Below are positions 41,393-62,498 of a DNA stretch of 62,510 nt, piece after piece. Below the pieces are notes generated by a model that worked only from the letters and a program-made list of their open reading frames with translations, had not been told where the DNA came from and did no database searches. Positions within the stretch are counted from its first letter, which is position 1. Each line of letters opens with the position of its first letter. A program made the position numbers and the translations under genes. This stretch comes from a virus: positions 1 to 62,510 of IMG/VR virus record IMGVR_UViG_3300025570_000014. The stretch is one strand, 5' to 3'.

Positions 41393-43030
41393 TTAGAGGG
41401 TATTCAAACCGTTCACATAGATCTTAGCATAGTATTCAGGTCTTAACATCTTCTTAGCATAGCGAGTCAAGAGGCCTTTACGTGGAGTGAAGGTCTGTGG
41501 ATCGTATACAAGAGGAGTCATGATCAATGGAATATAAGGAGCAAAAGTAGCACCTGTTTCCAAGAACTGAGAACCTCTAAATCCTAATAGGATAGTGTTT
41601 TCAGTCATATATGGGTTCTTATAAACATCAAACTTGGTGTTTAAGTTACCTACTTTTTGGATACCAAACGCGTAGTTCATAGTATCAGCATCCGCTCCAT
41701 CTGTAGCAGCAAATCCTGGGATTGATTCCAAGATAGTACCGATTGTTGGAGAACATACCATAAAGTTAGCGCCTCCTCTCAAAGTTAACTGGTGGATCTT
41801 GTTAGATACCTTGTTTAACTTAGTACCTAGAGTTTGGAACCATTGGCCTTGAGTATTATAGAAAGTACCATTGTTGGTTTCACCATTAGCATCAAATGTT
41901 TCATTGTTCCTAGCTGACCAGTAGTCAGTAGTAAGAGCATTTTCAATTAACATACCTAGGATCTCCAAATCAATTTCAAGAGCAATGTACTCACTCATGA
42001 TGCTTGTCAATTCAGCTTCAGCATCCAAAGAATGGTAAGCGTTCAAATCTTGAGCAAATTCTGGAGTCCATACAGCCTTAAGTTTCTTAGTCTTAGCAAC
42101 GATTGCTTCAGACTTCATCTTAATGTTGATTTCTGGGATATCGATCGGGTTGTTATTTCCGTTCAAAGTGGTGTTACCATCTTCGAAATCACCTCTTCGG
42201 TTATCCTGTGGTGCCTGTACATAAGTGATAGTAAAGGCAGTTGGGTCAGTGGCACCCGCGGTACCTTGAACGTATAAAACAATATCATTAGCACTTCCTG
42301 AGGCATAATTGTATTGAGGAATATTAACTCCAACACTAGTACCGTCTACAACGAATCCTCTAACACCATCAAGGTCTGGGAAGGCGAATGATGATGAGTT
42401 GAATACTAGTCTCTTTAAGGTACTAGCAGTTCCTGCAATAGAAGCAGATAACGCTGAGTCGAATCCAACTTCGGCCCATGAGGCTGAGCTGATACTCGCA
42501 GCGGTTGCAATTGGGCCTGATGAAGTTACATTGGTAGAGTAAGTCCACTTACCTGCACCGTATAAACCATCAGTAGGGGCACCCTCAGTGTTAGTAACAC
42601 CATACATAGAGCCTGCACCAAATACATCACCACCTACATTGAATTTAGAACCAGACTTAGCTGTTCCATATTGAAAATCGAGGAAGAAAACAAGTCCTGA
42701 AGGTAAGCTCATAGGTTGAACACTTACGAAATCTTTCGCAGCAATCATACCGAATACTTTTCTTACCAAAGGAAGAGCAACTCCTGCCCATTGTTCACCT
42801 GTTCCAGGAGTAAATGAAGCACCTGCTACACCACCACCAGTTTGTGAAGATTCAACAACAAGCTGTTTAGCTTGGTTTTCGAGAATCAAAGCCATATTGT
42901 TTTTGTCAGTCTCACTATTGAGTCCTTCTAACAATCCTGTCTGATTCCATTTGTTAGCTAATCTAGCGGAGTCCGATTGGACGTTTTTCCACTGATTTGC
43001 GCTCTCTAAAAGAGAATTTAAATTTGACAT
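41393..43030 (-). CDS. 23: Major capsid protein gp23
   Basis: A 545-residue HK97-fold shell protein. Recognisable segments: GEQWAGVALPLVRKVFGMIA near residue 75, MSLPSGLVFFLDF, then a variable surface insert, IKMKSEAIVAKTKKLKAVWT near 305, EFAQDLNAYHSLDAEAELTS, and the C-terminal YDPQTFTPRKGLLTRYAKKM. In T4 the N-terminal 65 residues are removed by gp21; here GLLE (about 33-36) and LVVE (about 52-55) are candidate cleavage points. It follows the scaffold gene and is closed by the strongest terminator in the window. Confidence 0.96.
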   Translation of the reverse strand: MSNLNSLLESANQWKNVQSDSARLANKWNQTGLLEGLNSETDKNNMALILENQAKQLVVESSQTGGGVAGASFTPGTGEQWAGVALPLVRKVFGMIAAKDFVSVQPMSLPSGLVFFLDFQYGTAKSGSKFNVGGDVFGAGSMYGVTNTEGAPTDGLYGAGKWTYSTNVTSSGPIATAASISSASWAEVGFDSALSASIAGTASTLKRLVFNSSSFAFPDLDGVRGFVVDGTSVGVNIPQYNYASGSANDIVLYVQGTAGATDPTAFTITYVQAPQDNRRGDFEDGNTTLNGNNNPIDIPEINIKMKSEAIVAKTKKLKAVWTPEFAQDLNAYHSLDAEAELTSIMSEYIALEIDLEILGMLIENALTTDYWSARNNETFDANGETNNGTFYNTQGQWFQTLGTKLNKVSNKIHQLTLRGGANFMVCSPTIGTILESIPGFAATDGADADTMNYAFGIQKVGNLNTKFDVYKNPYMTENTILLGFRGSQFLETGATFAPYIPLIMTPLVYDPQTFTPRKGLLTRYAKKMLRPEYYAKIYVNGLNTL

Positions 43031-43054: not shown

Positions 43055-44152
43055 TTAATTAATACCTGCTAATCTTTTAAAGCGTGACACCATAGCATCC
43101 TCTGGAATGATATTCTCAGTTAGAGGGCGTTTTGGAGCTACACCTGCAGGCTTGGAAGCCATACCCATTGCTTCTCTTATATTAGACTTAGGAGATTTAA
43201 CAACTAAGTTTTCGCTAAGAGTAGAATAAATAGCTTTAGCTTCTTTTACTGTTTCGGCTCTATCAAAAGCCTTTAAAACCTTAATTTTCTGATTTTCTGT
43301 TAAGGTTTTAGCCTTGAAAATCTTATTAGTATAGAGTAACTTGGAATTTAATAAATTGACTTCATTAAGTTCAGAACGTAAATGAGAAATTGCGGATTGG
43401 GATTCTTTAAGATCTTTTTCAAGCTTCTTCTTTTCATCAGCCTTTCCATCTAGATAGCCTTCTTCTTCGGCATCTGTTCTAGCATTTTCTTCCAATTCAA
43501 TTTCTTCAGTATCAGTAACATCAACTGTTACGTCTACATCTTCAATTTCCTCTTCGTCATCAACAAATTCAACAGCGTCTCCGCCTGCTTCTAAGTCGCC
43601 TGAGGATACCATGTCTTCGATTACATCTTCGATCATAGCTTTTAATTCCTCTTCACTCATATCGTCCAGATCAATTTCATCATCGTCCTCACCTGCTTCT
43701 TTGCCCTTTTCGTATTCAAACTTGTCTACGTCAGCGCGTTCAGCTTCTGATTCCTCTGATAAATCTTCCTTTTCGTCTTTCATGCCATCTAAATAGCCCT
43801 CTTCTTCGGCATCTGTTCTAGCATTCTCATCTAAACCTTCTAGCTCAGCTAGAATTTCATCAAGGTTGAATTCCTCATCGAGTTCCTCTTCCTCTTTGAT
43901 TTTTCGCATCTTCATAGTTTCGGCTTCCGCCTTATTATCGTAAGTGCGATCATCTCCTTCTGCCTTTTCTTTTTTAGTCATGTATTCTTTCTTTTCGTCG
44001 AGTTCCTCCATTTCGTGGATTTTCTCAGAAAGCATGTCTTTAAGATGAGGTGTGAAGGCTTCTTCTAAAGCTGCTTTCGCATTAGCGATAGCAGTTTCTC
44101 TGACAGCTTTTGCATCAGCAATAGCTTCTTCTAACAAATTTCTATTTGCCAT
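43055..44152 (-). CDS. 22: Prohead scaffold protein gp22-like
   Basis: A 365-residue, highly charged helical protein between gp21 and gp23, the scaffold position. Residues 1-45 are Ala/Glu-rich helix; the centre is strongly acidic (EEEIEDVDVTVDVTDTEEIE). The C-terminal third has KESQSAISHLRSELNEVNLL and ends FKRLAGIN, typical of gp22. The module NARTDAEEEGYLDG occurs twice here and once in the core protein at 44940-45791; one pair is identical over 60 bases. Scaffold is degraded by gp21 before packaging. A terminator and late-type motif in the 170-base gap upstream suggest its own promoter. Confidence 0.85.
   Translation of the reverse strand: MANRNLLEEAIADAKAVRETAIANAKAALEEAFTPHLKDMLSEKIHEMEELDEKKEYMTKKEKAEGDDRTYDNKAEAETMKMRKIKEEEELDEEFNLDEILAELEGLDENARTDAEEEGYLDGMKDEKEDLSEESEAERADVDKFEYEKGKEAGEDDDEIDLDDMSEEELKAMIEDVIEDMVSSGDLEAGGDAVEFVDDEEEIEDVDVTVDVTDTEEIELEENARTDAEEEGYLDGKADEKKKLEKDLKESQSAISHLRSELNEVNLLNSKLLYTNKIFKAKTLTENQKIKVLKAFDRAETVKEAKAIYSTLSENLVVKSPKSNIREAMGMASKPAGVAPKRPLTENIIPEDAMVSRFKRLAGIN
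43447..43486 (-). repeat. Diverged third copy of the NARTDAEEEGYLDG module
   Basis: Encodes the same core peptide within the scaffold but with several base changes and a different flank (GKADEKKK instead of GMKDEK), so it is an older duplicate. Confidence 0.7.
43769..43828 (-). repeat. 60-base identical repeat, copy 1 (in scaffold gene)
   Basis: Base-for-base identical to 45216-45275, in the same reading frame, encoding the NARTDAEEEGYLDG module with its flanks. No synonymous differences are present. Confidence 0.9.
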
Positions 44153-44322: not shown

Positions 44323-44940
44323 TTATATAATAGGGCACTGTCCATTATTACAAAGGATCTCTGTAATAATTTCGTTTATTTTATGATATGTGTTGGGAAC
44401 CGTAGTAGAGGGGTCTAAACCTTCACTTATAGGGTGGACATATGCTCCTGGGGTAGAGGGAGTTGATACAAAATCCCAACATAGTAATTCGAAATCATCT
44501 TGTACTTCTTGGACTCCATTAGAATTAGGTTGTAAACTACCCATTCCTCTAGATGAAACACCGACTGTAATCCCGTTTCGGAATAACTCTGTTAGAATAT
44601 TACCTGATGGGGTGGGGAGGATTTCAATAGTGCCTACTACATCATCACCTTCCCAACGGATATTTTTTATATTATGTGAAACATTTTTTAAATTGATAAT
44701 AGAGGAATCAGGGTGATCTAATTCACCTAATGCTCTATTTTCTTTAATAGGACCATCAATATAGTTTTTTACTTCTCTTTCTAAAATTTCTCTAGGATAG
44801 TACCTACCATTACCGTTTTTTGTTTCGGCGGTTTGTAGTCTACCCTCAACTATTAAATTACCATTATCCGTTTTAAGGGCTTCGGTAATTGCTTGGGGTG
44901 CAATTTTAAAAAACTGAGTATCTATGAGGGTCTGTCTCAT
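44323..44940 (-). CDS. 21: Prohead core protease gp21
   Basis: A 205-residue serine protease that matures the prohead. The catalytic His76 lies in ALGELDHPDSS and the catalytic Ser in GITVGVSSRGMGSL (Ser129/130), the same order and spacing as T4 gp21. Other family strings: NLIVEGRLQTAETKNGNGRY and YYPREILEREVKNYI. T4 gp21 cuts after (L/I)-x-E; such sites occur in gp23, the core proteins and the leader proteins of 55-61 kb. The ATG overlaps the stop of the upstream core gene by one base. Confidence 0.93.
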   Translation of the reverse strand: MRQTLIDTQFFKIAPQAITEALKTDNGNLIVEGRLQTAETKNGNGRYYPREILEREVKNYIDGPIKENRALGELDHPDSSIINLKNVSHNIKNIRWEGDDVVGTIEILPTPSGNILTELFRNGITVGVSSRGMGSLQPNSNGVQEVQDDFELLCWDFVSTPSTPGAYVHPISEGLDPSTTVPNTYHKINEIITEILCNNGQCPII

Positions 44941-45791
44941 TATCCCATAGTATTAGCGTCAGCCGTTACTTCCATTAACTTTTTTTCTAATAAAGCAACT
45001 TCTTTTTGGACTGATTGTACTGCTGATTGGTTAATGAATTCAGAAATAGATTCATCTTCGTTTACCATAAGAGCACTTTTTCTTTCAGCAATAGCTCTTT
45101 CGTAGATTTTAGCTTCAACTCTTTTTTTAGCTACTTCTCCTAGACGTTTTGCTTCTTTCATAATGTCTTTCATACCCATTCGGCCCTCTTTCTTAGCTTC
45201 TTTTTTCTTATCTTTCTTTTCGTCTTTCATGCCATCTAAATAGCCCTCTTCTTCGGCATCTGTTCTAGCATTCTCGGATAAATAAGCTTCAAATTTAGTT
45301 TCATAAGAGGTTTGTTTGCGTTCTGCAAATGGGTTTCCTATTGAGGGGATACCTGCTACTGCTTCTTCTAATAGTTCTTTTAATTGTTCGGACTTTTTCA
45401 TGTTATTTTCTTTTATATCTCCATAGCCGGAGGATTTATGTTCACCTTTAGGTTCTTCTTGTAATTTAGATTCTTCATAACCTATACCATCAACTTGAAA
45501 TGCTGCATTTTTCATATAGTATGTAGGGTCTTCTCCTAATTTTTTAACTACTATGTCTATAGCTTCATCTTTGTGGAGTTTAGGGTTTTGTCTAATTTCA
45601 AAAGATACCCCATTATGAAGCTGGCCAGGGTTTAGATTATTAAAAAGTTTATGGTCTTCATAATCCCACCCTTTAGTATCCTGCTCGTTTGCTTTTTTAG
45701 TAGCTTTCTTTTTAGTAGCTTTCTTTTTAGTAGATTTCGTTTCCGCTTCTGCTAAATAGTTTTTAAAATTATATATGATATTGCTTGACAT
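44940..45791 (-). CDS. Putative prohead core / internal head protein, 283 aa
   Basis: Lies directly upstream of gp21, where T4 has small core genes. The first residues MSSNIIYNFKNYLAEAETK contain a leader of the F-x-x-Y-L-x-E type with a gp21-like site (LAE). A histone-like tract KKKATKKKATKKA follows, then a folded centre, the NARTDAEEEGYLDG module shared with the scaffold, and a basic helical end. A mature protein beginning with Lys/Ala repeats would bind DNA inside the head. Core or internal protein is a well-supported inference; exact function unknown. A late-type motif stands at 45795-45804. Confidence 0.55.
   Translation of the reverse strand: MSSNIIYNFKNYLAEAETKSTKKKATKKKATKKANEQDTKGWDYEDHKLFNNLNPGQLHNGVSFEIRQNPKLHKDEAIDIVVKKLGEDPTYYMKNAAFQVDGIGYEESKLQEEPKGEHKSSGYGDIKENNMKKSEQLKELLEEAVAGIPSIGNPFAERKQTSYETKFEAYLSENARTDAEEEGYLDGMKDEKKDKKKEAKKEGRMGMKDIMKEAKRLGEVAKKRVEAKIYERAIAERKSALMVNEDESISEFINQSAVQSVQKEVALLEKKLMEVTADANTMG
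45216..45275 (-). repeat. 60-base identical repeat, copy 2 (in core protein gene)
   Basis: Second copy of the perfect 60-base repeat found at 43769-43828. The flanking sequences differ completely, so only this module has been copied between the two genes. Confidence 0.9.
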
Positions 45792-47219: not shown

Positions 47220-49121
47220 TCACTCCTTTAAGTTACCTTCATCTAATAATGACTCATCTTGCTCAAATACTAATTGTTTGCGATTAACAGGTATTTTTTT
47301 AAGCATATCTTTATTCTGCAGATATGTTGTTTTGGCTTCTAAAGCTAAAGGAGAATTTCCTTTATATGTAGATTTTCTAGAATCAGACTCATTTTCAACA
47401 CCTTTCATAGCCTTTACACCTAATCTATCTTTACCAAAGGCGTTATCTTGAGTATTACGATTTGATGAATTTTCTTTGGGTCTGCCTAGATCACTTTGAT
47501 TATAATCAGTAGGTACATTATCAGGTTCATCATAATATCTACCTTTACCATACATAGTAGCTAAATCATGTGGAGTACCATATGAAGCTCCGGTTTCTTG
47601 AGGATCGTTTCCTTCGGTTTCGATTTGCGCGTTACGGAAGGCACGTTTAGCATCCTCTCTAACCAAATCTCTAAATTCTACATACTCATCTTCACTCATA
47701 TCAAACAGGTGATCATAAATAAAGTCTGTAGGGAATAGCTTAGTCTCCATCATTTGAGCTGCTAAGTCCATTTTTTCTTTCATTAATACAACTCTCTCCT
47801 GTTCATAAATGATAGAAGGTATAGTTAAATTAAGTTCGAAATTTGTTAATTCTTCCCCATCATAACCTTGGGTGTAGAGGTGAACAACTGCAATTTTATA
47901 TAATTCTGAGAGAACGATCTTTTGGATACGTTCTACAGTGCGTGCAAATCTAATATCTTCTGATGCTAAAGTTGCTTTACCTCCTGTGTTTTCATCATAT
48001 CCTAAAAATGCCTTTGGTACTTTAAGAGCTGCAAATAATTTATCTCTTAAGTATTCAACGTCTTGAATTCCATCATATTGTAAGCCTGGGGTGGTATCAA
48101 TTTTAGTAGTGGTGTCATTACCTCTCATAGGAATATAAAAATCCTCTAACATGTTTTGCATGTTATATTTGAGATTATAGTCCCCAGTTTCTTGATCCAT
48201 ATAGGGAGTGCGTTTCATTTTTGAAATAGTCTTCTGCATGAAGTTTTCTATTTCAGCAGGTGGTATAGCTCCTACATTTATATAAAAAATACGTTTTTCA
48301 GGTGCTCTTACAATTCTATGTACTAACATAGCATCCTCCATTAAAACATACTGTTTAAAGAGTTTACGTGCGGGTTCTATGTAGCTTCTACCATATGGGA
48401 GGTAGTTTACATCTGAGAGTAGTCTAAAGTGGGCAATTTCATAATTGTCAAAGTAAATAGCATTCCGATTGTTATAGTCTGAAGTTGAGGTTGAGGTTCC
48501 ATAGTAACCCCCGTATTCACCACCCCCACTTAACCCATCAGGATCAAATTTAAATTTGACTTCTACATCATGTTTATTTTCTCCAATTTTTTCTTCTCTT
48601 ATGATATTATAAGCAGTATAAGGTATAACATTATATACACCAAATTTATCTGCTATTTCCAATTTAAGAAAAAAGTCACCATACTTACACATTTGGCGAA
48701 CCCACATCCATAAATTAAATTCTATATTTAATACATCATAAAATAAATTATATAGAATTTTTTGTAAATGCTCATCAGAACTTTTTATTTGGATCACCTC
48801 ACCCATTGAATTTTTAAGAGTGGATTCATCAGCTATTATATCAAGGGCTGATGCTACTATAGCATCAGTATCCATAGCTTCGTAATCCCTATAAAGTTGT
48901 GGTCTAAGGGTTTGGTAATTTATTCCAGGGTTGTAAATTCCTATTGAGTTAGTAGTATACAAACGATTGTACCTATCAACCATGGAATTAGTTTCTAATT
49001 GACCTGCTTGTTGAAATTCATCAAAGTCTAAAACTTTAAGTTGATTTCCTCCGGTATTGCGGATTATTACATCCGTAGAGAATAATCTCTTTAATCTTGT
49101 AAATATGCTTGTATCGGCCAT
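47220..49121 (-). CDS. 20: Portal vertex protein gp20
   Basis: A 633-residue ring subunit through which DNA enters and leaves the head. Family strings: YRDYEAMDTDAIVASALDII at about 74-93, FNLWMWVRQMCKYGDFFLKL near 137, RIVRAPEKRIFYINVGAIPP near 274, and GKATLASEDIRFARTVERIQ near 385. It is longer than T4 gp20 (524 aa), with a C-terminal extension. The gene follows terminase as in other marine relatives. It has both promoter types upstream: a Bacteroidota-like element (49129-49160) and an AATATTTAT late-type core inside its spacer. Confidence 0.95.
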   Translation of the reverse strand: MADTSIFTRLKRLFSTDVIIRNTGGNQLKVLDFDEFQQAGQLETNSMVDRYNRLYTTNSIGIYNPGINYQTLRPQLYRDYEAMDTDAIVASALDIIADESTLKNSMGEVIQIKSSDEHLQKILYNLFYDVLNIEFNLWMWVRQMCKYGDFFLKLEIADKFGVYNVIPYTAYNIIREEKIGENKHDVEVKFKFDPDGLSGGGEYGGYYGTSTSTSDYNNRNAIYFDNYEIAHFRLLSDVNYLPYGRSYIEPARKLFKQYVLMEDAMLVHRIVRAPEKRIFYINVGAIPPAEIENFMQKTISKMKRTPYMDQETGDYNLKYNMQNMLEDFYIPMRGNDTTTKIDTTPGLQYDGIQDVEYLRDKLFAALKVPKAFLGYDENTGGKATLASEDIRFARTVERIQKIVLSELYKIAVVHLYTQGYDGEELTNFELNLTIPSIIYEQERVVLMKEKMDLAAQMMETKLFPTDFIYDHLFDMSEDEYVEFRDLVREDAKRAFRNAQIETEGNDPQETGASYGTPHDLATMYGKGRYYDEPDNVPTDYNQSDLGRPKENSSNRNTQDNAFGKDRLGVKAMKGVENESDSRKSTYKGNSPLALEAKTTYLQNKDMLKKIPVNRKQLVFEQDESLLDEGNLKE

Positions 49122-49128
49122 AGTATAT

Positions 49129-49160
49129 TAAATATACGAATAAATATTACAAAAGCCAAC
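49129..49160 (-). promoter_or_regulatory. Bacteroidota-type promoter for the portal gene
   Basis: The coding strand has GTTG (49157-49160), then 20 bases, then TATATTTA (49129-49136), preceded by TTCG as at the two other sites. The ATG is only seven bases beyond the -7 element, so the transcript would be nearly leaderless. An AATATTTAT motif lies in the spacer. Confidence 0.45.
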
Positions 49161-50718
49161 TAAAATCCTCAGTTCCCCCTTTTCCATCATCCATAGTATA
49201 AGGATTATCTAGTCCTGTAGAGAAGTAAGCTCCTTGGTAGTTGGTTGTGGTTTTTGAAAAGGATCCTAAAGCTGCCTTTGTTATATCTACTCCGTGTTGT
49301 TTAAATTTTAATGCTGTGTCTCTAACGTATAATCCCATACCAAAACTCATAATTAAATCGTCATTATAGCCTCCTTGAGCTTCAGCCCTGCCATGTTTCC
49401 ATATAAACGTTTTCATTTCTTCTAGTAAGCGTTTTGATTGGATTGTAACACCTCTATCTGCTACATATTCTTGAAATTTACCTATTACCATAGGGCGAGT
49501 TCTTGTTGACATAGTAAAACCTGCAGTCATACTTGAATTATTTTCATAATTTTGTAAATAAGAATCTACATTTATATTATCGGATTTAGGTGAGTAGTAT
49601 AAATTAGAATAATTACGTTCAATAATAGTTTGAATTGTACTCCATCCAATGTTAGCATTTTCCACTATGAGTAGGGCATTGTTATATTCGGTAGCAATTG
49701 CTGTAAGAATATTACCAAAGTCTTTAGTACCTACTTGGCCTTTATATTCACCTACTTGAGTAGCCGATTCTACATCAAAAATGTGAAAAGCTGAGTAATC
49801 CTTACCATCTCCTCTAGCTACGTCTGCTGAGATAAGGTATTGTCTTGAATAATCGGCTGATTCCCAAATCCATAAATTTTGGTCTGCACCTCTTCTTTCT
49901 AAAGGTTCTTTAAGTGTAGATTTTTCTATAAATTCTAGATATTCAGGGTAAAATACAATGTCACCTGAGGTGCTAAAGTCGCAGTCACATTCTTGTGCTG
50001 CCATTCTAGGATCTCCTAGTAGTTCATCTTGTCTATCTCTCCACACTTGGTCTCGTTCAGGGTGGACATACCAAGGTAATTTAATAGGTAAGAATTCATT
50101 TTCTGAGGATTCTGCTCTAACCCATGTTTGGTGGAACCAATTTCCAGTACCATAAGGTGTTGAAAGAGCAATACACCCTCCACCAGTAGCGAGTGTTTGT
50201 TGAGCCGAGGCCCATATTTCTCCAATATTATCAATGAAGGCAGCCTCATCAATTAGCAAAAGGGAAACTGCTTCGGATCTACCTGCATCACTAGATGCTG
50301 ATGTGGCTTTAATTTGAGACCCGTTTGTTAGTCGAAGGGTTAGTTTGTTGTTTTCTTCAAAATCTACTTTAAGCCAAGAAGGTAAATTTTCATACATAAA
50401 TTTAACCTTTGTAACCATGTTTTTAGCGGTTTCTTGCTTGGTAGCTATGCATAAAATATTTTTATCTTCATGGAAAATCATCATCCATAGCGAGTACCCC
50501 GCAGATAGTGTTGAAATGCCTAATTGACGCGATTTTAAAATAATAGAATAAGGATTGTCTTCAAATAGTTTTAAGACTTTTTCTTGAAAAGGGTATAAAT
50601 GGAACTGTATTCTACCCCTTTGTGGGTGTTGAATCATACAATACTTCTTCATGAAGTGTATAGGATCCTGGGCGCACTTTACATATTCTTGCCTTATTAT
50701 TTTTTTAAGGTTACTCAT
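49147..50718 (-). CDS. 17: Large terminase subunit gp17
   Basis: This 523-residue packaging motor combines ATPase and nuclease. Walker A-type SRQLGIST is at 63-70, Walker B LLLIDEAAFID around 153-163 (Asp157-Glu158), and the coupling motif ALSTPYGTGNWF near 184. The C-terminal RNase H-like nuclease has SADVARGDGKD with Asp299, IVENANIG with Glu353, and a late acidic YNDDLIMSFGM. It is slightly shorter than T4 gp17 (610 aa). The stop of the upstream signal-peptide gene is overlapped by its start, and the portal gene follows within 25 bases. Confidence 0.96.
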   Translation of the reverse strand: MSNLKKIIRQEYVKCAQDPIHFMKKYCMIQHPQRGRIQFHLYPFQEKVLKLFEDNPYSIILKSRQLGISTLSAGYSLWMMIFHEDKNILCIATKQETAKNMVTKVKFMYENLPSWLKVDFEENNKLTLRLTNGSQIKATSASSDAGRSEAVSLLLIDEAAFIDNIGEIWASAQQTLATGGGCIALSTPYGTGNWFHQTWVRAESSENEFLPIKLPWYVHPERDQVWRDRQDELLGDPRMAAQECDCDFSTSGDIVFYPEYLEFIEKSTLKEPLERRGADQNLWIWESADYSRQYLISADVARGDGKDYSAFHIFDVESATQVGEYKGQVGTKDFGNILTAIATEYNNALLIVENANIGWSTIQTIIERNYSNLYYSPKSDNINVDSYLQNYENNSSMTAGFTMSTRTRPMVIGKFQEYVADRGVTIQSKRLLEEMKTFIWKHGRAEAQGGYNDDLIMSFGMGLYVRDTALKFKQHGVDITKAALGSFSKTTTNYQGAYFSTGLDNPYTMDDGKGGTEDFSWLL

Positions 50719-55527: not shown

Positions 55528-56109
55528 TTATCCTCCTATGTCTGCTATTACATCCTTAAAAATGGAATGAACTTCTTTACCTTTAACGGCTGATTTGAGT
55601 CCGTATAATCCTCCCTTAAGGTAACTTGCTTTTTTAAGATAGGAAGCAGCATCACCTCCTGCTTGACCCGCCATCAATAGAATTACAATAGCGTAAAGAA
55701 TTTCTGAAATTTGTTTCTTCTTTTTTTCATCCTTAGTAAACAGTCCTACTATTCTTTTAATTGGAGCTTGAAATGCTTTCTCATTATCGTGAGTCCATTT
55801 ATAGATATTTTTTGCTGCTTCTTCACCTTTACCCCAATTGTATTTTTTAGACATTTTTTGGGCAAACTTAGCAAGCATATTAGCTACAGTATTAGATAAT
55901 AGGATATAACCTATAATACCTACTACACCTGCAACCTCATCTAATTTTTCTTCTTTACCTTTTAATTCACCTTTTATAGCGGTAGCTAATTGAGCTCCTA
56001 AAGCATCAAATTCATTATCAAATGCTTTTTCTTCGGATCCATTATCTTCTAATTCTTCTTTAAGAAGAGGATTATTTTTTAAATATGCTTTGTAATCGAA
56101 AGTATCCAT
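55528..56109 (-). CDS. Putative internal virion protein with two hydrophobic helices, 193 aa
   Basis: I use the ATG at 56109, which forms a TAATG overlap with the upstream stop, rather than a TTG two codons earlier. The start MDTFDYKAYLKNNPLLKEEL has a leader of the same type as its neighbours, with LKE as a possible gp21 site. Two apolar stretches follow: VVGIIGYILLSNTVANMLA near 65 and ISEILYAIVILLMAGQAGG near 137. If packed and ejected, these could insert in the host membrane. Holin-like behaviour is an alternative. Function unknown. Confidence 0.5.
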   Translation of the reverse strand: MDTFDYKAYLKNNPLLKEELEDNGSEEKAFDNEFDALGAQLATAIKGELKGKEEKLDEVAGVVGIIGYILLSNTVANMLAKFAQKMSKKYNWGKGEEAAKNIYKWTHDNEKAFQAPIKRIVGLFTKDEKKKKQISEILYAIVILLMAGQAGGDAASYLKKASYLKGGLYGLKSAVKGKEVHSIFKDVIADIGG

Positions 56110-56750
56110 TACCAATAGGTATTCATTTTAGGTCCTAAACCGAGAGCGGGAGCATATCTAGGGAGATTACAACTCCAATATCCCGCAGTTGTTCTATCTT
56201 TCTTTTGGTCACAATTGTGACGAGCTGCAAAGGCGTTACGGGCTTCTTTATCTTTAATTTTTGCTCTTAAACCACCTGATCCAAATGAGACTTTTTTAAC
56301 TTTGTCTCCATCCATCACATAAACATAGTAAGCTTTAGAACCACCACGTTTTGGTTTACCTATTTCAACTTCTTTACCTTTAAATTCTGCTTCCTCTATG
56401 TTTTTGGGTAAGTCAAGTGGTACTTTTTTACCTTCATAAATTCCAAACTTACCAATGTCAGTATTTTCTATTAGGTGTAGACTATTTTCATCTAGACTAA
56501 TAGTTTTCCACCCATTCAGCATACGAGCTTCAGCAAATAATTGTAGGTATTTTTTAGATCCGATTCTAAATACATTGTCTTGCAATGAGACGCCATTATC
56601 GATGTGATACCGTAGACCTTCGCTTATAGGCGCTTTAGTCTCGAGTAAAGCGATTTTAGGTGCCGTATCACAACCACCACAACCACATGAACATGGTTCT
56701 TGTGGGATTTGATATCCCTGTATTGCTTCTTGAATGTATTTTTTAATCAT
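56109..56750 (-). CDS. Putative internal protein with Cys-rich N-terminal and basic C-terminal domain, 213 aa
   Basis: Begins MIKKYIQEAIQGYQ, a leader with IQE as the possible gp21 site, followed at once by a cysteine cluster EPCSCGCGGCD that could bind metal. The C-terminal 80 residues, from KPKRGGSKAYYVYVMDGDKV through VSFGSGGLRAKIKDKEARNA to FAARHNCDQKKDRTTAGYWS, form a motif found in head-gene regions of many marine T4-like phages. The cleaved product would start at the metal cluster. Likely packaged with the DNA; the biochemical role is unknown. Confidence 0.55.
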   Translation of the reverse strand: MIKKYIQEAIQGYQIPQEPCSCGCGGCDTAPKIALLETKAPISEGLRYHIDNGVSLQDNVFRIGSKKYLQLFAEARMLNGWKTISLDENSLHLIENTDIGKFGIYEGKKVPLDLPKNIEEAEFKGKEVEIGKPKRGGSKAYYVYVMDGDKVKKVSFGSGGLRAKIKDKEARNAFAARHNCDQKKDRTTAGYWSCNLPRYAPALGLGPKMNTYW

Positions 56751-56774
56751 ATTAATTGTAATTTATTTCATTTA

Positions 56775-57425
56775 CTAATTACCCGTATAAGCATTAAATA
56801 CTTTTTTTCTTAGAGAATTTGCTCTTGCATTATCCCAATTGCTATGAGAAAGGAATATTGTGTTTTTGGGGTCAAAACGTCCCCTTACATATACTAAATC
56901 GTCGGGTCTGCGTAATTCGGCTGTTAACTTACTAAAAGCTAATATTGCTTTTGGAATACCTTGCCATAGATTATTAGGTCTTAAATGACCATCAACATAT
57001 GCCATAAAAGCACGTTCTTGCTTTTCATTAAAAGGATTTTCAAATTTTAACAATTCAGTCTCTAACCTGTCATCAAAAGGAATTTCTTCATTAGATGGTT
57101 TATATAGTATTGTATCTTCGTAGTGTTCTATTGCTCCATCAGCAAAGTCTTCAGCAGAAACTTCTATTTCTTCTGGGTCAGATCCTTTAGCATTACTCCT
57201 GGCTTCATTATACCATGTATCGTTCATTACTTCTATAGATTCTTCTAGGTCTTCATCTGAAATATCAGGATGTTTTGCTTTAATAAAGTTTATTACTGCT
57301 TCTTTATATTTTGGTCCTGCTTGTTCTATATCTGCACTATCTTCTGATGCCTCTATATACCATATATCATCTTCATATAGCTTACCTTCTGCGAGGAATT
57401 GTCTAAAAATATTTAATTCTTTCAT
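56775..57425 (-). CDS. Leader-bearing small protein A, 216 aa
   Basis: N terminus MKELNIFRQFLAEGKLYEDD is nearly a sister of the next two genes' starts and closely resembles the T4 internal-protein targeting sequence (MKTYQEFIAE as I recall it). FLAE-G would be the gp21 cut. The rest is acidic in the first half (YNEARSNAKGSDPEEIEVSA) and more basic at the end (NARANSLRKKVFNAYTGN). No known domain. A late-type motif at 57437-57447 precedes it. Probably an internal head protein delivered with DNA (inference). Confidence 0.55.
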   Translation of the reverse strand: MKELNIFRQFLAEGKLYEDDIWYIEASEDSADIEQAGPKYKEAVINFIKAKHPDISDEDLEESIEVMNDTWYNEARSNAKGSDPEEIEVSAEDFADGAIEHYEDTILYKPSNEEIPFDDRLETELLKFENPFNEKQERAFMAYVDGHLRPNNLWQGIPKAILAFSKLTAELRRPDDLVYVRGRFDPKNTIFLSHSNWDNARANSLRKKVFNAYTGN

Positions 57426-57445
57426 TTTATTTTTGTTTATAAATA

Positions 57446-58066
57446 TTAATTGTAATTATCCATACCGAAATCGGCAATTTTACCTTTCCATAAATCAGCA
57501 TCTTTTTCTCCAAATGGATCTAAGTCACTAAATACACCTAGATTTGATACTCCGGCGAACTTGAATGAGTCTACATATTCTTCATCCATGTATTGTTGGG
57601 TAAGCATTTTGGCTTCTTCTTCAGTGTCTGCTGCTACATAAAGAATTACCTCTAAACTTTCCATAGGATCCCTAAATGAAGTAGAAAAGATAGTTTGGTT
57701 GGGGTCAATGCTATATTGTGTAGTATCAATTTCTAAACTATCATCATAATCTCCTGCCCCTGCACTAGTGTTAGCAAATTGAGGAACGTACCAATTCCCT
57801 AACTCAAATACTCCTTCATCTTTAAGGTTACCTTCAAATTCTTTTTGCCCTTCATCACTTATATCTATGAAGCCTACTGTATCATCTGTAAATGGGAATA
57901 AAGGTCCATATTTGTCTTGTACATATGATTTAGCAATTTCTTTAGCTTTGAACTTATCGTCCGCTTTTACACGAATAATTGTCTGCTTTCCCTTCCTGTA
58001 GTTTTTAAATTCAGTAGTGTATATTTCTTCGTTGAGAAATTGTCTAAATCTATGTAATTCTTCCAT
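57446..58066 (-). CDS. Leader-bearing small protein B, 206 aa
   Basis: Starts MEELHRFRQFLNEEIYTTEF, sharing FRQFL-x-E with protein A. The mature part appears to contain two similar halves: KNYRKGKQTIIRVKADDKFK with KEIAKSYVQDKYGP, and FRDPMESLEVILYVAADTEE with AKMLTQQYMDEEYV. Each has a strand followed by a helix ending in YxxE or similar, so an internal duplication of an alpha/beta unit is likely. No enzyme motif. It lies 20 bases upstream of protein A. Confidence 0.5.
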   Translation of the reverse strand: MEELHRFRQFLNEEIYTTEFKNYRKGKQTIIRVKADDKFKAKEIAKSYVQDKYGPLFPFTDDTVGFIDISDEGQKEFEGNLKDEGVFELGNWYVPQFANTSAGAGDYDDSLEIDTTQYSIDPNQTIFSTSFRDPMESLEVILYVAADTEEEAKMLTQQYMDEEYVDSFKFAGVSNLGVFSDLDPFGEKDADLWKGKIADFGMDNYN

Positions 58067-58082
58067 TTTAATTTATTTTATT

Positions 58083-58496
58083 TCAGCTAGGTAATTCTTC
58101 TCTAGTATCACCAGGATAAAGATCTTTATTTGCATTGAAAAATTCAGAGTAATCTTTATCTACATACTTTCCATAAGTAAAAAAATCACTATCTTTCCAA
58201 TAATCATCGGCCCAAATCTCAACCATATCTTCATTTTGGTATTTAAATATATCGTCCTTCGATAATTTTAAATCATACGCTACCTGACCTTTGGAAAGAT
58301 GGGTTATTAAAGACTGAATGATTTGATTTTTTTTATATTTAGAAAATTCAGATAATGGTTTTTTGGCAAAAGGATTTTTATCATAATAATCAATTACCTC
58401 TTGTGGTGGGTTGAATTTATTTATAAATTTAATATTACCATCATTTTCGTATAGCCTACCTTCAGTTATGTATTTTCTTAAATCGAAATTGTCCAT
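58083..58496 (-). CDS. Leader-bearing small protein C, 137 aa
   Basis: Starts MDNFDLRKYITEGRLYENDG; YITE-G fits the (I/L)-x-E cleavage rule, and GRLYEND repeats the GKLYEDD of protein A right after the cut. The remainder is acidic and aromatic (DMVEIWADDYWKDSDFFTYG) with a predicted helix at FSKYKKNQIIQSLITHL. The acidic, DNA-mimic-like surface could suit an inhibitor of host DNA enzymes; this is speculation. No family recognised. Confidence 0.5.
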   Translation of the reverse strand: MDNFDLRKYITEGRLYENDGNIKFINKFNPPQEVIDYYDKNPFAKKPLSEFSKYKKNQIIQSLITHLSKGQVAYDLKLSKDDIFKYQNEDMVEIWADDYWKDSDFFTYGKYVDKDYSEFFNANKDLYPGDTREELPS

Positions 58497-58510
58497 TTTA
58501 TTTTATTTTA

Positions 58511-58705
58511 TCAGATTTCTGTAAATCCTAAAGATTTAAGCATATCATATTCAAAATTATCTCTAATGTATTCTGCTAAGTCAGCACGTTCTTCATCGTG
58601 ACCCCCTGCATCAAGGATATTATGTATTTTGATAAACATGTCTGCTTGTATATCGTCATTTTCACCTTCTATAAGGAATCGTTGGAATTTAGTTAGTTTT
58701 TTCAT
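58511..58705 (-). CDS. Leader-bearing small protein D, 64 aa
   Basis: Very short: MKKLTKFQRFLIEGENDDIQ, then an acidic helical region ending FEYDMLKSLGFTEI. FLIE-G matches the leader family. After cleavage only about 50 residues would remain, comparable to the smallest internal proteins of T4. A perfect late-type motif at 58717-58727 lies 11 bases upstream, so proteins D, C, B and A may share one late message. Confidence 0.5.
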   Translation of the reverse strand: MKKLTKFQRFLIEGENDDIQADMFIKIHNILDAGGHDEERADLAEYIRDNFEYDMLKSLGFTEI

Positions 58706-58725
58706 TTTAGTTTTATTTATAAATA

Positions 58726-59871
58726 TTAGTTGAAATCAATTTCGTTATTAAATTCAATATCAACATCTTCATTAGAGGGTGAAATAAATTTAGTAATATA
58801 TTCAATTCCAGTATTAAGTAAACTTTTAACTTGGTTTACAGTTTTACTTAATAAATTTTCTTGAAGAGATTTTGAAGGATTAAAAATAAGAGATACTACA
58901 CTCCAAAATCTATATTTACCCGTTTTGCCTTTAGGATTTTCAGAAGATTTAAGGTCTGCGCTTTTAGTTGATGTAGATTTAAATCTTACAGTAAGATTTA
59001 TTTTATCTGCTATTTTAGCCACATATGAATCGTCATTAACTGAGTTAATAGAAGCTTTAGATAAGGAGGGGTCAGCAGATAATACCCAATCTGCGGAAGC
59101 AGCATCATTTACCCCAAATTTTTTATACCCAGACATAGCTTCTTTAGCAAAAGCTATTTTGAATTCTTCACTTTTATTAAATAAAGCTTGAAGTTTACCC
59201 CGCATTTCTTTATGTGCTTTATCTCCATCTATAATTATAGAGTCTTCACCTTGTTTTAAGCTTTGACCTACAGTACCCATTTTGGTTACCCCAGATTCAA
59301 CAAATTTATTAAAAGTATTTATTACATCTTGGGCTTCAGCAGAATCTAATAATTCAGGAGTATCCTCCATCGCAGCATAAAACGTAGCTAGAGACTCAGC
59401 TTTACCTCCACTCATTAATTGAGAAGGGCCTACTTTAACTGAGATCATTTTATCTCCTAAAATTACATCAGTTTTGGGAGTTGTATTTTTAGCTCCAAAT
59501 TTACTCCAAAAGGGGGTAATAGAAGTTTCTAATCCTCTTCCAGTCCCTTGAGCTGAGTCTCCTCCTGAAAGGTTTAGGTCTTGGATTATAGCTTCTGATT
59601 TTTTAACCATTTGAGGGTTTTGGGTTAATTTTTTAATTTCTTTGGGATCTATAGCTCCTTCTGGTGGGGTTAATTTATTTACATTATACCAAGCTTGGAC
59701 TAAAGCTGCTTCAAATAAAGTAGCATCACCTGTGTCTGCTTCATTTAAGTCAATCCCCATCTCCTTTAACATTCCCTCTAACATAAGCATATCCTGAGCA
59801 TCATTGATGTCAGGATATCCTTTTGGAAATTTGTATGAAACTTTCCTTAAAAATTTTTCTAATATATCCAT
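58726..59871 (-). CDS. Putative PD-(D/E)XK-like virion nuclease, 381 aa
   Basis: Has a possible PD-(D/E)XK core. A helix ATLFEAALVQAWYNVNK carries Glu54; after a spacer comes KTDVILGDKMISVKVGPSQL with Asp135 and Lys146, the D-x(n)-x-x-K hairpin, although the acidic residue before Lys is Ser. I recall similar strings (KTDVILG, SVK, QLMSGGKAES) from other marine T4-like phages. The first residues MDILEKFLRKVSYKFP are leader-like but lack the (L/I)-x-E cut. The C-terminal third is Ser/Lys-rich. It may cut host DNA after ejection, or be a structural relic of the fold. It is linked by one-base overlap to the 114-residue gene. Confidence 0.5.
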   Translation of the reverse strand: MDILEKFLRKVSYKFPKGYPDINDAQDMLMLEGMLKEMGIDLNEADTGDATLFEAALVQAWYNVNKLTPPEGAIDPKEIKKLTQNPQMVKKSEAIIQDLNLSGGDSAQGTGRGLETSITPFWSKFGAKNTTPKTDVILGDKMISVKVGPSQLMSGGKAESLATFYAAMEDTPELLDSAEAQDVINTFNKFVESGVTKMGTVGQSLKQGEDSIIIDGDKAHKEMRGKLQALFNKSEEFKIAFAKEAMSGYKKFGVNDAASADWVLSADPSLSKASINSVNDDSYVAKIADKINLTVRFKSTSTKSADLKSSENPKGKTGKYRFWSVVSLIFNPSKSLQENLLSKTVNQVKSLLNTGIEYITKFISPSNEDVDIEFNNEIDFN

Positions 59872-60215
59872 TATTTAACTTTCAACTGTTTTAATGTCAT
59901 AAAGATTTTAGAAATAGCACTTGGATCCCCAGACTTCATCATAGCGTTAAAAGTTTTTACTACTTCATCTTTATGTTTAATGTTAGTAATACCTTTCCCA
60001 TTAGCTAGTAAAGTAATAGCTTGTTTGAGAAGAGATGTATCTATGCTACTATCTAAATCAGCCATTTTTGTCGTAAAACTTAAAATAGGACCTGAGAGTT
60101 TTTCTGATCCTTTATCAGGAGTTTCTTCGGATACTTGTTCTAGGAGGGCTTCTTTTATAAGTTGTTTTAATTCTAATTTTCTCATTGTATTTTTTAATTC
60201 ACCGTAGGTTTCCAT
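59871..60215 (-). CDS. Hypothetical helical protein, 114 aa
   Basis: From the first ATG the start is METYGELKNTM; a second ATG ten codons later gives MRKLELKQLIKEALLEQVSE, which fits the leader family with LIKE as a possible cut. The rest is helical (SLLKQAITLLANGKGITNIK, then VVKTFNAMMKSGDPSAISKI). It overlaps the nuclease-like gene by one base. Possibly a small partner or inhibitor of that protein; this is position-based only. Confidence 0.5.
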   Translation of the reverse strand: METYGELKNTMRKLELKQLIKEALLEQVSEETPDKGSEKLSGPILSFTTKMADLDSSIDTSLLKQAITLLANGKGITNIKHKDEVVKTFNAMMKSGDPSAISKIFMTLKQLKVK

Positions 60216-60217
60216 AA

Positions 60218-60721
60218 TTATAAATCTTCTACTGATGCCGGTACTGCAGGTTCAATATCAACACTAATGTCTTCACTTTCTCCACCTCCTATTGGATCTC
60301 CTCCAATTGGTTCGTCTAATTCTTCGTCTTTAGGAACAGTTGCAAATTGGTATCTTAATAATCTTGAAATGGCTTCACAAGCCTGTTGTTCTTCTGATAG
60401 GGATTCCAGCCAATATTTTTTACCCGCTACGTTTGCTGTGTAGAGTCCTTTATTGGCTTCGTCACCTTCATAAATTAAATAAAAATCTGCACCATTTACA
60501 AGCATAACTCTAAATGTAGTAGGTTTTGGTGCTACCCATTGAATGTCTTTAACGAAAGGTTCATATTGAAAATCAAATAAATCATCCATTACTCCCTTTA
60601 AAGAAGGGAAGCTATCAATCATAGGAAACTTATTAGGAACCAACTCAGGTTGGTCAGTCTTTTCAGCATAAATATCCTTAGCTAATAGACGGATTTTTTC
60701 TTTGAATTCCGACTTTTTCAT
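60218..60721 (-). CDS. Hypothetical protein, 167 aa
   Basis: Starts MKKSEFKEKIRLLAKDIYAE, sharing MKKSE(F/L)KE with the internal leader-like segments of the gene at 61383-62105. The middle has beta strands with FRVMLVNGADFYLIYEGDEA; the end is an acidic, Gly-rich tail (GGDPIGGGESEDISVDIEPA). No known domain. One-base overlap with the gene before it. It belongs by context to the internal-protein cluster. Confidence 0.5.
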   Translation of the reverse strand: MKKSEFKEKIRLLAKDIYAEKTDQPELVPNKFPMIDSFPSLKGVMDDLFDFQYEPFVKDIQWVAPKPTTFRVMLVNGADFYLIYEGDEANKGLYTANVAGKKYWLESLSEEQQACEAISRLLRYQFATVPKDEELDEPIGGDPIGGGESEDISVDIEPAVPASVEDL

Positions 60722-61383
60722 TATGATTTTTTTAATTTAGCAGTTACTTCTTTGAATAGTTCATCTTTAGTAATATCTCTACCTAATGCTTTTGTAAAGG
60801 CCTTTATCATATCGATTTCAGTACTAGCACCGCGTTTAAGTTGTTTAAGAACTCTTATTAATTCTCTTTCAGAAAAATCATAATCAACTTTAGCTTCAGC
60901 TATCGCTTTTTTACCTCTTAATTTAGCAATTGCATTATCAATGCGATTTAATTTTCTACCATACTCATTTGCAATTGGGCCTCCTTCTGGTTCAGCTTCT
61001 TGCTCCATATCTCTCATTAATTGAGCTTTTTCTTTTTCAAGAAATTTAATCTTAGAAGCATTTTTAACTGCTGCATAATTAGGATTAATAGATTTTTTAG
61101 GAGTTGATTTAGGAGCATTAGCTGCCTTTTCTCGCTCCATTCTATCTGCTCTTTGTTTTACTAAAACAGGATCATTAAAATCCATAAGTTCTTTTAAATC
61201 AAAGGTATCCTTAAACTTCATTACATGGTCCTCTTTTTTATTCTCTTCACCTTTAGTTAACTTACGTTCATTTTTAGGTGTTTGAGGCTTACCATGTTTA
61301 GCTATATTAGTAGCTAAAGCGTATGCTAAAGATGTTCTTTCATCTTTAGACATTTTTTCTAATTTAGTTTTTTCCTTAGCCAT
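60721..61383 (-). CDS. Hypothetical basic helical protein, 220 aa
   Basis: Lys/Glu/Ala-rich throughout; MAKEKTKLEKMSKDERTSLA at the start, a helix-rich centre (KIKFLEKEKAQLMRDMEQEA) and a folded C-terminal 70 residues (ERELIRVLKQLKRGASTEID, then AFTKALGRDITKDELFKEVT). It is coupled by one-base overlaps to both neighbours. No membrane segment. Scaffold-like or DNA-binding are both compatible with its composition. Confidence 0.5.
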   Translation of the reverse strand: MAKEKTKLEKMSKDERTSLAYALATNIAKHGKPQTPKNERKLTKGEENKKEDHVMKFKDTFDLKELMDFNDPVLVKQRADRMEREKAANAPKSTPKKSINPNYAAVKNASKIKFLEKEKAQLMRDMEQEAEPEGGPIANEYGRKLNRIDNAIAKLRGKKAIAEAKVDYDFSERELIRVLKQLKRGASTEIDMIKAFTKALGRDITKDELFKEVTAKLKKS

Positions 61384-62105
61384 TATACCTCAGGTGTAAT
61401 TGCATCAAACTGTGTTTTAGAAGAGAATTTAGCTGAGTTAAGGATTTGGTTTGCTAATTCTACGAATCCTGCTTCTTTTGCTCGTCTAGCTATTACTACT
61501 AATTCGTCGGTCATACCATCTAATGTAGCTTCATCTGGGGTGGGTTCAAGTGATACTTCATCTTCAACTTCTACATCATCAGTTACATCAATATCAACAT
61601 CAACTTCTTCTTCTTCTTCAAGTTGAACATAGTCTGGTTTTTTCTTTTTAAAAGATTTAGGTTCGGATCCCGGATCAATATTTCCTGCTTCTGCTAAAAT
61701 TTCATTTTTAAGATATTCCTTAAATTCAGATCTTTTTATTTTACCTTCCATAGTAGAGGTTAATTTTTTAGTTATTTCAAGTTCTTTATTAAGTTCTTTC
61801 TGGCTATCTATTTCTTTAGAAGTTGCTTCACTCATTCGAAGAACTTCGTTTTTTAGATATTCTTTTAATTCAGATTTTTTCATTTTATTTATTTTTTTAC
61901 CTGCTTTTACAGCGGACTTATAATCATCGGAGTTACCATGAGAAGGTTTTCCACCTCGCTCTTTTTTAGCACGGATATTATCCCATAAACCCGGTTTTCC
62001 TTCTTCAAGTTTATTATACTTTATAGTATAACCCCCTTTAATGGTAATTTCTCCATCATTATGAAGTTTTTCCATATCATCCGAATTGAGTTGTATAGTA
62101 TTCAT
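61383..62105 (-). CDS. Protein with two leader-like repeats and an acidic tract, 240 aa
   Basis: The first 65 residues are basic with GLWDNIRAKKERGGKPSHGN, a string I recall from other marine phages. Two copies of the segment K-x-SE(L/F)KEYLKNE(V/I)L follow, at about 77-91 and 125-139, each resembling an internal-protein leader. An acidic run EEEEEVDVDIDVTDDVEVED recalls the acidic centre of the scaffold. The end, ELVVIARRAKEAGFVELANQ, is a helix hairpin. Probably a core or internal head protein. A late-type motif is at 62112-62122. Confidence 0.5.
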   Translation of the reverse strand: MNTIQLNSDDMEKLHNDGEITIKGGYTIKYNKLEEGKPGLWDNIRAKKERGGKPSHGNSDDYKSAVKAGKKINKMKKSELKEYLKNEVLRMSEATSKEIDSQKELNKELEITKKLTSTMEGKIKRSEFKEYLKNEILAEAGNIDPGSEPKSFKKKKPDYVQLEEEEEVDVDIDVTDDVEVEDEVSLEPTPDEATLDGMTDELVVIARRAKEAGFVELANQILNSAKFSSKTQFDAITPEV

Positions 62106-62126: not shown

Positions 62127-62498
62127 TTATTTAATCTTTAAATTTTTTAAATATTCAAGTCCTTCTTGAAGTTGAGATTCAAGATCTTCTTTTTTAAAAC
62201 CACCTTTCCAACTTTCTACATCTCCTGATTCTGTAACGTATCCTTCACTATTTTCGTTTAATTTTTCTTTTATAAAAGATTCGTACTCAGAAATTACATT
62301 ATTAATATTACTATTGTGGATATTATTGTGATATTCTTCTAATTTACCTTGTTTTTGAAGTTCGGCTTCAAAATCTACTATACAATCAAAGCATTTCTGG
62401 TATGCTGGGAAGACTTTTTTATCAAGGTGTTTTTTCATGAGGGTATTACATTCCGGACAAAATAGAGGCATTTTCCCTATTTTTTTAAATTTGTCCAT
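62127..62498 (-). CDS. Zinc-ribbon protein, 123 aa
   Basis: Two CxxC pairs, Cys14-Cys17 (LFCPECNTL) and Cys36-Cys39 (YQKCFDCIVD), form a zinc ribbon in the first 40 residues. The rest is a charged helical region with NSEGYVTESGDVESWKGGFK. Zinc ribbons of this kind bind nucleic acid or protein partners; a transcription factor role is possible but cannot be told from sequence. The start at 62498 is 12 bases from the window edge, where a partial late-type motif (TAATATTT on the plus strand) is seen. Confidence 0.65.
   Translation of the reverse strand: MDKFKKIGKMPLFCPECNTLMKKHLDKKVFPAYQKCFDCIVDFEAELQKQGKLEEYHNNIHNSNINNVISEYESFIKEKLNENSEGYVTESGDVESWKGGFKKEDLESQLQEGLEYLKNLKIK

Follow-up and report, generated by a model that had tools for sequence, protein, structure and literature searches.

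The internal proteins of bacteriophage T4 are targeted to the capsid by a short N-terminal leader, trimmed by the prohead protease gp21 and ejected. Ip1-Ip3, alike only in this leader, inhibit GmrSD restriction enzymes, a different one for each protein (PMC12373910). Mutations in the IPIII leader, MKTYQEFIAE, placed targeting mainly at residues 4 and 7 and processing at residues 8 and 10, and gp21 cuts after L/I-x-E (PMC9026906). Proteins injected with DNA by large phages are known for few systems. The inner-body and ejection proteins of phiKZ and SPN3US also carry protease-trimmed propeptides on packaged proteins, but gp175-type proteases cut at another motif, S/A-x-E, and the available parts of the reports describe no short leader common to unrelated accessory cargos. 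In the present work a cluster of leader-bearing genes was analyzed at 55.5-60.2 kb of IMG/VR record IMGVR_UViG_3300025570_000014, a linear viral record of 62,510 nucleotides (62.5 kb, hereafter the window) whose predicted genes lie on the minus strand. The phage is T4-like and aquatic, and the window is a fragment of its genome. It is highly probable that the genes of the cluster encode proteins handled as the T4 internal proteins are, with capsid targeting, trimming by gp21 and ejection of the cargo.

Six of eight consecutive genes in the cluster begin with PHI-x-x-PHI-[LI]-x-E (PHI, hydrophobic or aromatic) within 21 residues, and their bodies are small and otherwise unrelated. Eight leaders had been listed in a first-pass annotation of the window, and all were recovered at the same coordinates and on the same strand. 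Their description as near-identical held only for 56775 and 57446, the others sharing a grammar and not a sequence. The annotation had also carried the cluster on to position 62,105, beyond the 55.5-60.2 kb that the leaders occupy, and had missed that 58726-59871 begins with a leader of 44 residues. Leaders of the cluster are listed below, with genes named by their coordinates, lengths in amino acids (aa) and the predicted cut marked by a slash; start codons are predictions.

58667..58705, minus strand: leader MKKLTKFQRFLIE/G of 58511-58705 (64 aa; FQRFLIE-G)
58461..58496, minus strand: class A leader MDNFDLRKYITE/G of 58083-58496 (137 aa; LRKYITE-G)
58028..58066, minus strand: class B leader MEELHRFRQFLNE/E of 57446-58066 (206 aa; FRQFLNE-E)
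57387..57425, minus strand: class B leader MKELNIFRQFLAE/G of 56775-57425 (216 aa; FRQFLAE-G)
56727..56750, minus strand: leader MIKKYIQE/A of 56109-56750 (213 aa, CSCGCGGC cluster, PHROG 7595 domain; phrog_7595, 2.9e-15)
56056..56109, minus strand: leader MDTFDYKAYLKNNPLLKE/E of 55528-56109 (193 aa, helical, putative membrane protein)
59740..59871, minus strand: 44-residue leader ending IDLNE/A of a restriction-endonuclease-like 381-aa protein (58726-59871)
58726..59739, minus strand: mature body of the endonuclease-like cargo, residues 45-381
60150..60185, minus strand: leader MRKLELKQLIKE/A of 59871-60215 (LKQLIKE-A), assuming a start at the second ATG; start codon uncertain

The likeness to T4 IPI, IPII, IPIII and Alt (MKTYQEFIAE, gp21-cut) lies in a pair of hydrophobic residues, spaced three apart, ahead of L/I-x-E, in the presence of a gp21 homolog, and in one leader being carried by unrelated bodies encoded by accessory, variable genes. 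In the 55528 leader (KAYLKN...LLKE-E) the Glu of the first site is lost; it resembles the delayed-site variant of T4 IPI, where the hydrophobic pair is present and the site is delayed (ITE-19; MKTFKEFTSTTTPVSTITE). The leader sequences themselves differ from those of T4 (MDNFDLRKYLxE, MKELxxFRQFLxE), cargo families are far more numerous, and the mature parts show no recognised similarity to the T4 proteins. Further differences are the long 44-residue leader and cargos in which several domains are fused, with remnants of leaders inside. The window's four best leaders (58511, 58083, 57446 and 56775) form an island; in L018-L023 the position of 58726 directly adjoins the homolog of 56109, without the island, a near-identical contig excepted.

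The first-pass annotation had also proposed the T4 internal-protein reading. It is borne out by the leader spacing, which is that of the mutated T4 leader (PMC9026906), by a gp21 gene in the genome, by matching L/I-x-E sites in the core protein, gp21 and gp23, by leaders that move independently of bodies, and by leader-bearing enzymes found by mass spectrometry in virions of other phages. The motif was set from PMC9026906 before scanning and applied to the first 21 residues, the expectation being derived from internal positions. As in T4, the window leaders have hydrophobics at i and i+3 and then L/I-x-E. Eight matches were observed in the window against 1.8 expected (p=5e-4), six of them within eight consecutive genes (permutation p=0.0005). 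The enrichment was gone when Glu was changed to D, Q, K, N or S. The leader motif suggested in the first-pass annotation matched at four N-termini and at none of 18,663 internal positions. Observed and expected matches in whole genomes were 21/7.0 for immuto, 21/4.7 for a 162 kb IMG/VR relative, 21/6.9 for T4, 10/5.3 for C48C1, 11/4.4 for HTVC008M, 13/7.0 for Mel-JY01 and 8/4.5 for Melnitz. Among phages without Peptidase_S77 they were 9/3.9 for T5, 8/4.4 for SPO1 and 2/2.9 for crAss001. In T4 the motif recovers IPII, IPIII, gp68, gp24 and Alt. A 54-aa T4 reading frame (NC_000866, 18966-19130) begins MKTFKEFIKED and is probably a further protein with a capsid-targeting sequence.

The leader could instead be a different tag, its likeness to the T4 leader and gp21 sites being coincidental. 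It might, for example, dock proteins to another compartment of the phage or affect translation or stability. It is short and helical, and the loose grammar is mildly enriched at N-termini in T5 (p=0.02) and SPO1 too. Single motif matches are therefore no proof; the loose motif has a genuine background, and lone matches outside clusters are weak. The different-tag explanation is nevertheless very improbable, since the motif is Glu-specific in both the window and T4, and the leader co-occurs with gp21 and matches virion mass-spectrometry data. L-x-E/A is kept at the leader/body junction though everything upstream differs, and synonymous variation and the lack of an upstream motif speak against a DNA or RNA element.

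That the leader is a unit of its own was apparent in relatives. With 58083 as query, 45 further IMG/VR loci were found, sharing mainly the first ~17-20 residues and having unrelated bodies. The class A leader was then searched for with a DNA pattern for MDNFDLxK[YF]LxE, in which positions 2-6, 8 and 12 are fixed by the pattern. At least 120 stretches matched in viral contigs; 84,980 prokaryote genomes gave two matches, both in phage-like contigs of metagenome-assembled genomes encoding homologs of window genes. The leader MDNFDL[RK]KYLxE was found on at least 157 distinct proteins, with 71 unrelated body families (single-linkage BLAST groups) among the matches listed. Distinct proteins were counted because IMG/VR contigs include near-duplicates. 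With one representative per family, conservation stops near residue 15, and residue 14, which is free in the pattern, is K or R throughout. Variation is highest at third codon positions (0.70 vs 0.96/0.90), and no motif was found in the DNA upstream of class A leaders, which is only A-rich. On these two grounds, a DNA-level element or recombination artefact was rejected. A tblastn search of phages with the 20-aa leader gave no matches, and a search of the open-access literature found no paper with the class A leader strings.

Exchange was also observed from the side of the cargo. Among class A cargo homologs with a different N-terminus, 23 of 44 have another grammar leader, against a background of 12% in a seed-based test. 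This test was used in place of a family-blind one ([LI]xE near the start of body homology), which was uninformative, D scoring above E, because ordinary proteins swamp it. DUF5872 bodies were found behind MDNFDLRKYLAE, MTRLEKIINE and MNRLQKIIQE, and a GEGAAKIAS...TWHH body behind MDNFDLRKYLAE, MIKLKDILTE and MRLLELLRE. Three window cargos occur elsewhere under other leaders: that of 56775 behind class A leaders in L122, L123, L132, L251 and L301; that of 55528 behind class A leaders in L141, L234, L129, L127, L128, L130, L198 and L252, and in immuto behind MKKSELVKLIKE; and the 58511 body in L195, as the C-terminal domain of a protein with a class A-type leader. A C48C1 protein that shares the EAEF/EAEYQGKKV segment of 56109 begins MKKFKQYIDE/G. 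The leader of 58726 is matched over residues 1-45 only in L017-L022 (78-87% identity, with other proteins following) and more weakly in L023. Its body is found in L003-L015 behind a fused 60218-like domain and in Melnitz behind MQGFKTFLSE/A, and fused homologs whose upstream sequence differs retain L-[NKT]-E/A at the junction. The class B leader M[KE]ELxxFRQFLxE is present on 23 proteins. In L301, L311 and L312 a domain is inserted behind it and an internal remnant DLAEG[RK] is left, as would be expected if recombination uses the leader. This exchange, like the motif grammar and the presence of gp21, is read from sequence comparison. By that evidence the leader is a module that can be separated and swapped, and across aquatic phages it recombines independently of the cargo.

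In the same three loci (L301 7408-7878, L311 873-1289, L312 9536-10135) cargo domains stand in series behind one leader with the internal remnants, and it is possible that these are packaged polyproteins cut apart by gp21. The C-terminal 175 residues of a 975-aa protein (L183 10488-13415) are a 55528-type cargo. A class A leader protein in L200 (3003-3833) lies between homologs of the tail-tube gene and a downstream tail gene; tagged cargo genes therefore extend beyond the head region.

T4-order prohead genes, including gp21, are present in the same genome as the leader cluster:

41393..43030, minus strand: gp23 major capsid protein, propeptide site ILE/NQAK, invariant in six relatives aligned
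43055..44152, minus strand: gp22-type scaffold with ELEE/NARTDAEEEGYLDG repeat, assigned by synteny and shared repeat
44323..44940, minus strand: gp21 prohead protease (Peptidase_S77), N-terminal site AITE/A (PF03420, 1.1e-31; phrog_207, 1.5e-55)
45747..45791, minus strand: leader MSSNIIYNFKNYLAE/A of the prohead-core-type protein 44940-45791, in gp67/gp68 position
47220-49121, minus strand: portal, head module
49147-50718, minus strand: terminase, head module

By gp21, the nearest named phages are Microcystis phage Mel-JY01 and Flavobacterium phage immuto, at ~51% identity. Among 25 leader contigs, mostly fragments, gp21 is encoded on 15, all eight longer than 51 kb among them; one of these (G022) is a distant match with the leader internal. 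The base rate is ~5% of phage records (2516/50,697). All 13 gp21 neighbourhoods examined have the order core-gp21-gp22-gp23 or a close variant, the variants including L328, with a class A gene directly upstream of gp21, and one locus that ends before gp22. L/I-x-E-type sites are common to gp21 (AITE/A), gp23 (ILE/NQAK), gp22 (LEE/N) and 44940 (FKNYLAE/A and FEAYL[AS]E/N), and homologs of 44940-45791 keep F-x-x-[YF]-L-x-E as well as the internal FEAYL[AS]E/N repeat.

The protein 44940-45791 had been counted with the arsenal; judged by its T4 gp67/gp68 position, it is a prohead-core protein and not cargo. Its possession of the same leader plus internal sites would fit an alternative in which the leader marks components of the prohead core or scaffold that are degraded or stay structural, nothing being injected. 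A class A-type leader on a scaffold-repeat protein (L243) and another beside gp21 (L328) agree with that alternative. It is unlikely, however, as the 71 unrelated body families, mostly accessory and patchily distributed, are unlike scaffold, the leader-bearing proteins in mature cyanophage virions are enzymes, and the T4 precedent is injection (PMC12373910). As a separate observation, the 43055-44152 scaffold and the 44940-45791 core protein contain a near-identical repeat, ENARTDAEEEGYLDG(M)KDEK, with L-x-E before each copy, and cutting by gp21 would release repeated peptides.

Packaging of leader-bearing enzymes has been demonstrated by others in related phages. Enzymes detected in purified virions of the T4-like cyanophages S-CREM2, S-SCSM1 and S-SZBM1 have the same leader grammar, with cargo that differs from the window's; the leader is not pointed out in the parts of the virion papers available. 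S-CREM2 encodes gp21, and the proteome of its purified virions is published (PMC10665884). Leaders were found on the packaged cytidylyltransferase gp154 (MKNFSSFLTE/A), the S-adenosylmethionine (SAM) hydrolase gp6 (MKDFDSFLEE), the virion protein gp13 (MKDLHSFLTE) and the kinase gp14 (MKRFDAFLTE), and the Cas9-like nuclease gp12 has RFASFMAE/A at residues 18-26. The leader was not equally common on proteins outside the virion: with the motif set beforehand, 5/26 non-structural virion proteins had it against 7/154 non-virion open reading frames (ORFs) (p=0.017). A tighter aromatic motif, chosen afterwards, gave 5/26 against 2/154 (p=7.5e-4). The virion-detected nucleotidyltransferases of S-SCSM1 and S-SZBM1 start with MKSFLQFLKE/A and MRFRQFIIE/A. 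The same family (T4-GC190) was reported in S-SM1 virions (PMC3037559), the S-PM2 T4-GC190 gene is homologous to a leader-bearing enzyme of C48C1 (MIKNFSQYLLE), and nucleotidyltransferase homologs are present in the window's relatives. S-CBWM1 was dropped as a further proteomics test; its genes are not T4-like, and its nicotinamide mononucleotide adenylyltransferase (NMNAT) starts with MLGHIDPAVLDYV, without a leader. In S-CREM2, gp12-gp15 (OR473000 7704-13331; Cas9-like, small protein, kinase, hypothetical) form a contiguous virion-detected block in which at least three have the leader, and the block looks like an injected-effector cassette.

From these data we infer packaging and cleavage in the window's phage, as well as ejection and function of the cargo. 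The N-terminal leader would bind the scaffold core of the forming prohead. Once the prohead had formed, gp21 (44323-44940) would cut after Glu, and the trimmed cargo would stay in the head together with the DNA. It would probably be ejected with the genome and act early in the host, its role most likely being against host defences or in host takeover. That the leader-bearing cargos are ejected effectors is likely; an anti-defence role for them is proposed tentatively.

Several observations weigh against this mechanism. The mild enrichment in T5 and SPO1 was mentioned above, and in S-PM2 the motif is not enriched (6/5.2). Class A bodies are acidic, with a median isoelectric point of 4.6, in contrast to the basic T4 internal proteins, and in Mel-JY01 the endonuclease-like protein has a homolog that lacks a leader. 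The virion data come from the three cyanophages and not from this phage or immuto. In S-CREM2 most non-structural virion proteins are without a leader and seven non-virion ORFs have one, and mass-spectrometric detection in CsCl-purified virions can include carry-over (PMC9602691).

Among the cargos, the structure model of the 58726 body gave VIA Z scores of 8.3 (MspI), 7.8 (HinP1I) and 7.5, the next unrelated structure scoring 2.7, at a predicted local distance difference test (pLDDT) score of 65 and Foldseek E values of 0.4-0.6. The alignment to MspI and HinP1I begins at residue 46, just past the predicted cut. D135, S144 and K146 are invariant in a 12-row alignment and are candidate PD-(D/E)xK-type residues. 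A PDB sequence search with the endonuclease profile gave no match, and avoidance of CCGG or GCGC, as a sign of a packaged endonuclease, was not found in the window. The model suggests, with moderate confidence, a restriction endonuclease of the MspI/HinP1I type. The 55528 protein is helical and possibly membrane-bound; its structure model (pLDDT 51) was not used. Among 50 cargo body families scanned there were four Pfam matches, DUF5872 alone being strong, and one weak PADLOC match. The 180 kb of Mel-JY01 (PP395634) that were examined contain no GATC and no CTAG, where 335 and 148 were expected, pointing to strong restriction-site avoidance or a self-directed nuclease.

The tag probably marks a large, unstudied set of proteins injected into the host. 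A broader proposal, to which we give an even chance, is that the injected effectors of aquatic T4-like phages form one large, shared pool, marked by a universal, sequence-readable head-loading tag. Leaders and cargos would recombine freely at the tag, each phage having its own anti-defence or takeover set, including a packaged restriction-type endonuclease, and the tag would explain the NMNAT, SAM hydrolase, kinase and Cas9-like proteins already seen in cyanophage virions. With such a leader, metagenomic phage genes of unknown function could be ranked in their thousands as candidates for injected proteins that counter defences or take over the host. As four leaders of this kind are present in the isolate immuto, the idea is testable now. 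Head engineering in phages of other hosts might also make use of these leaders as loading tags.

Outside the cluster, the ORF at 62127-62498 is the C-terminal part of a conserved 191-aa gene cut by the window end, which is complete in L001.

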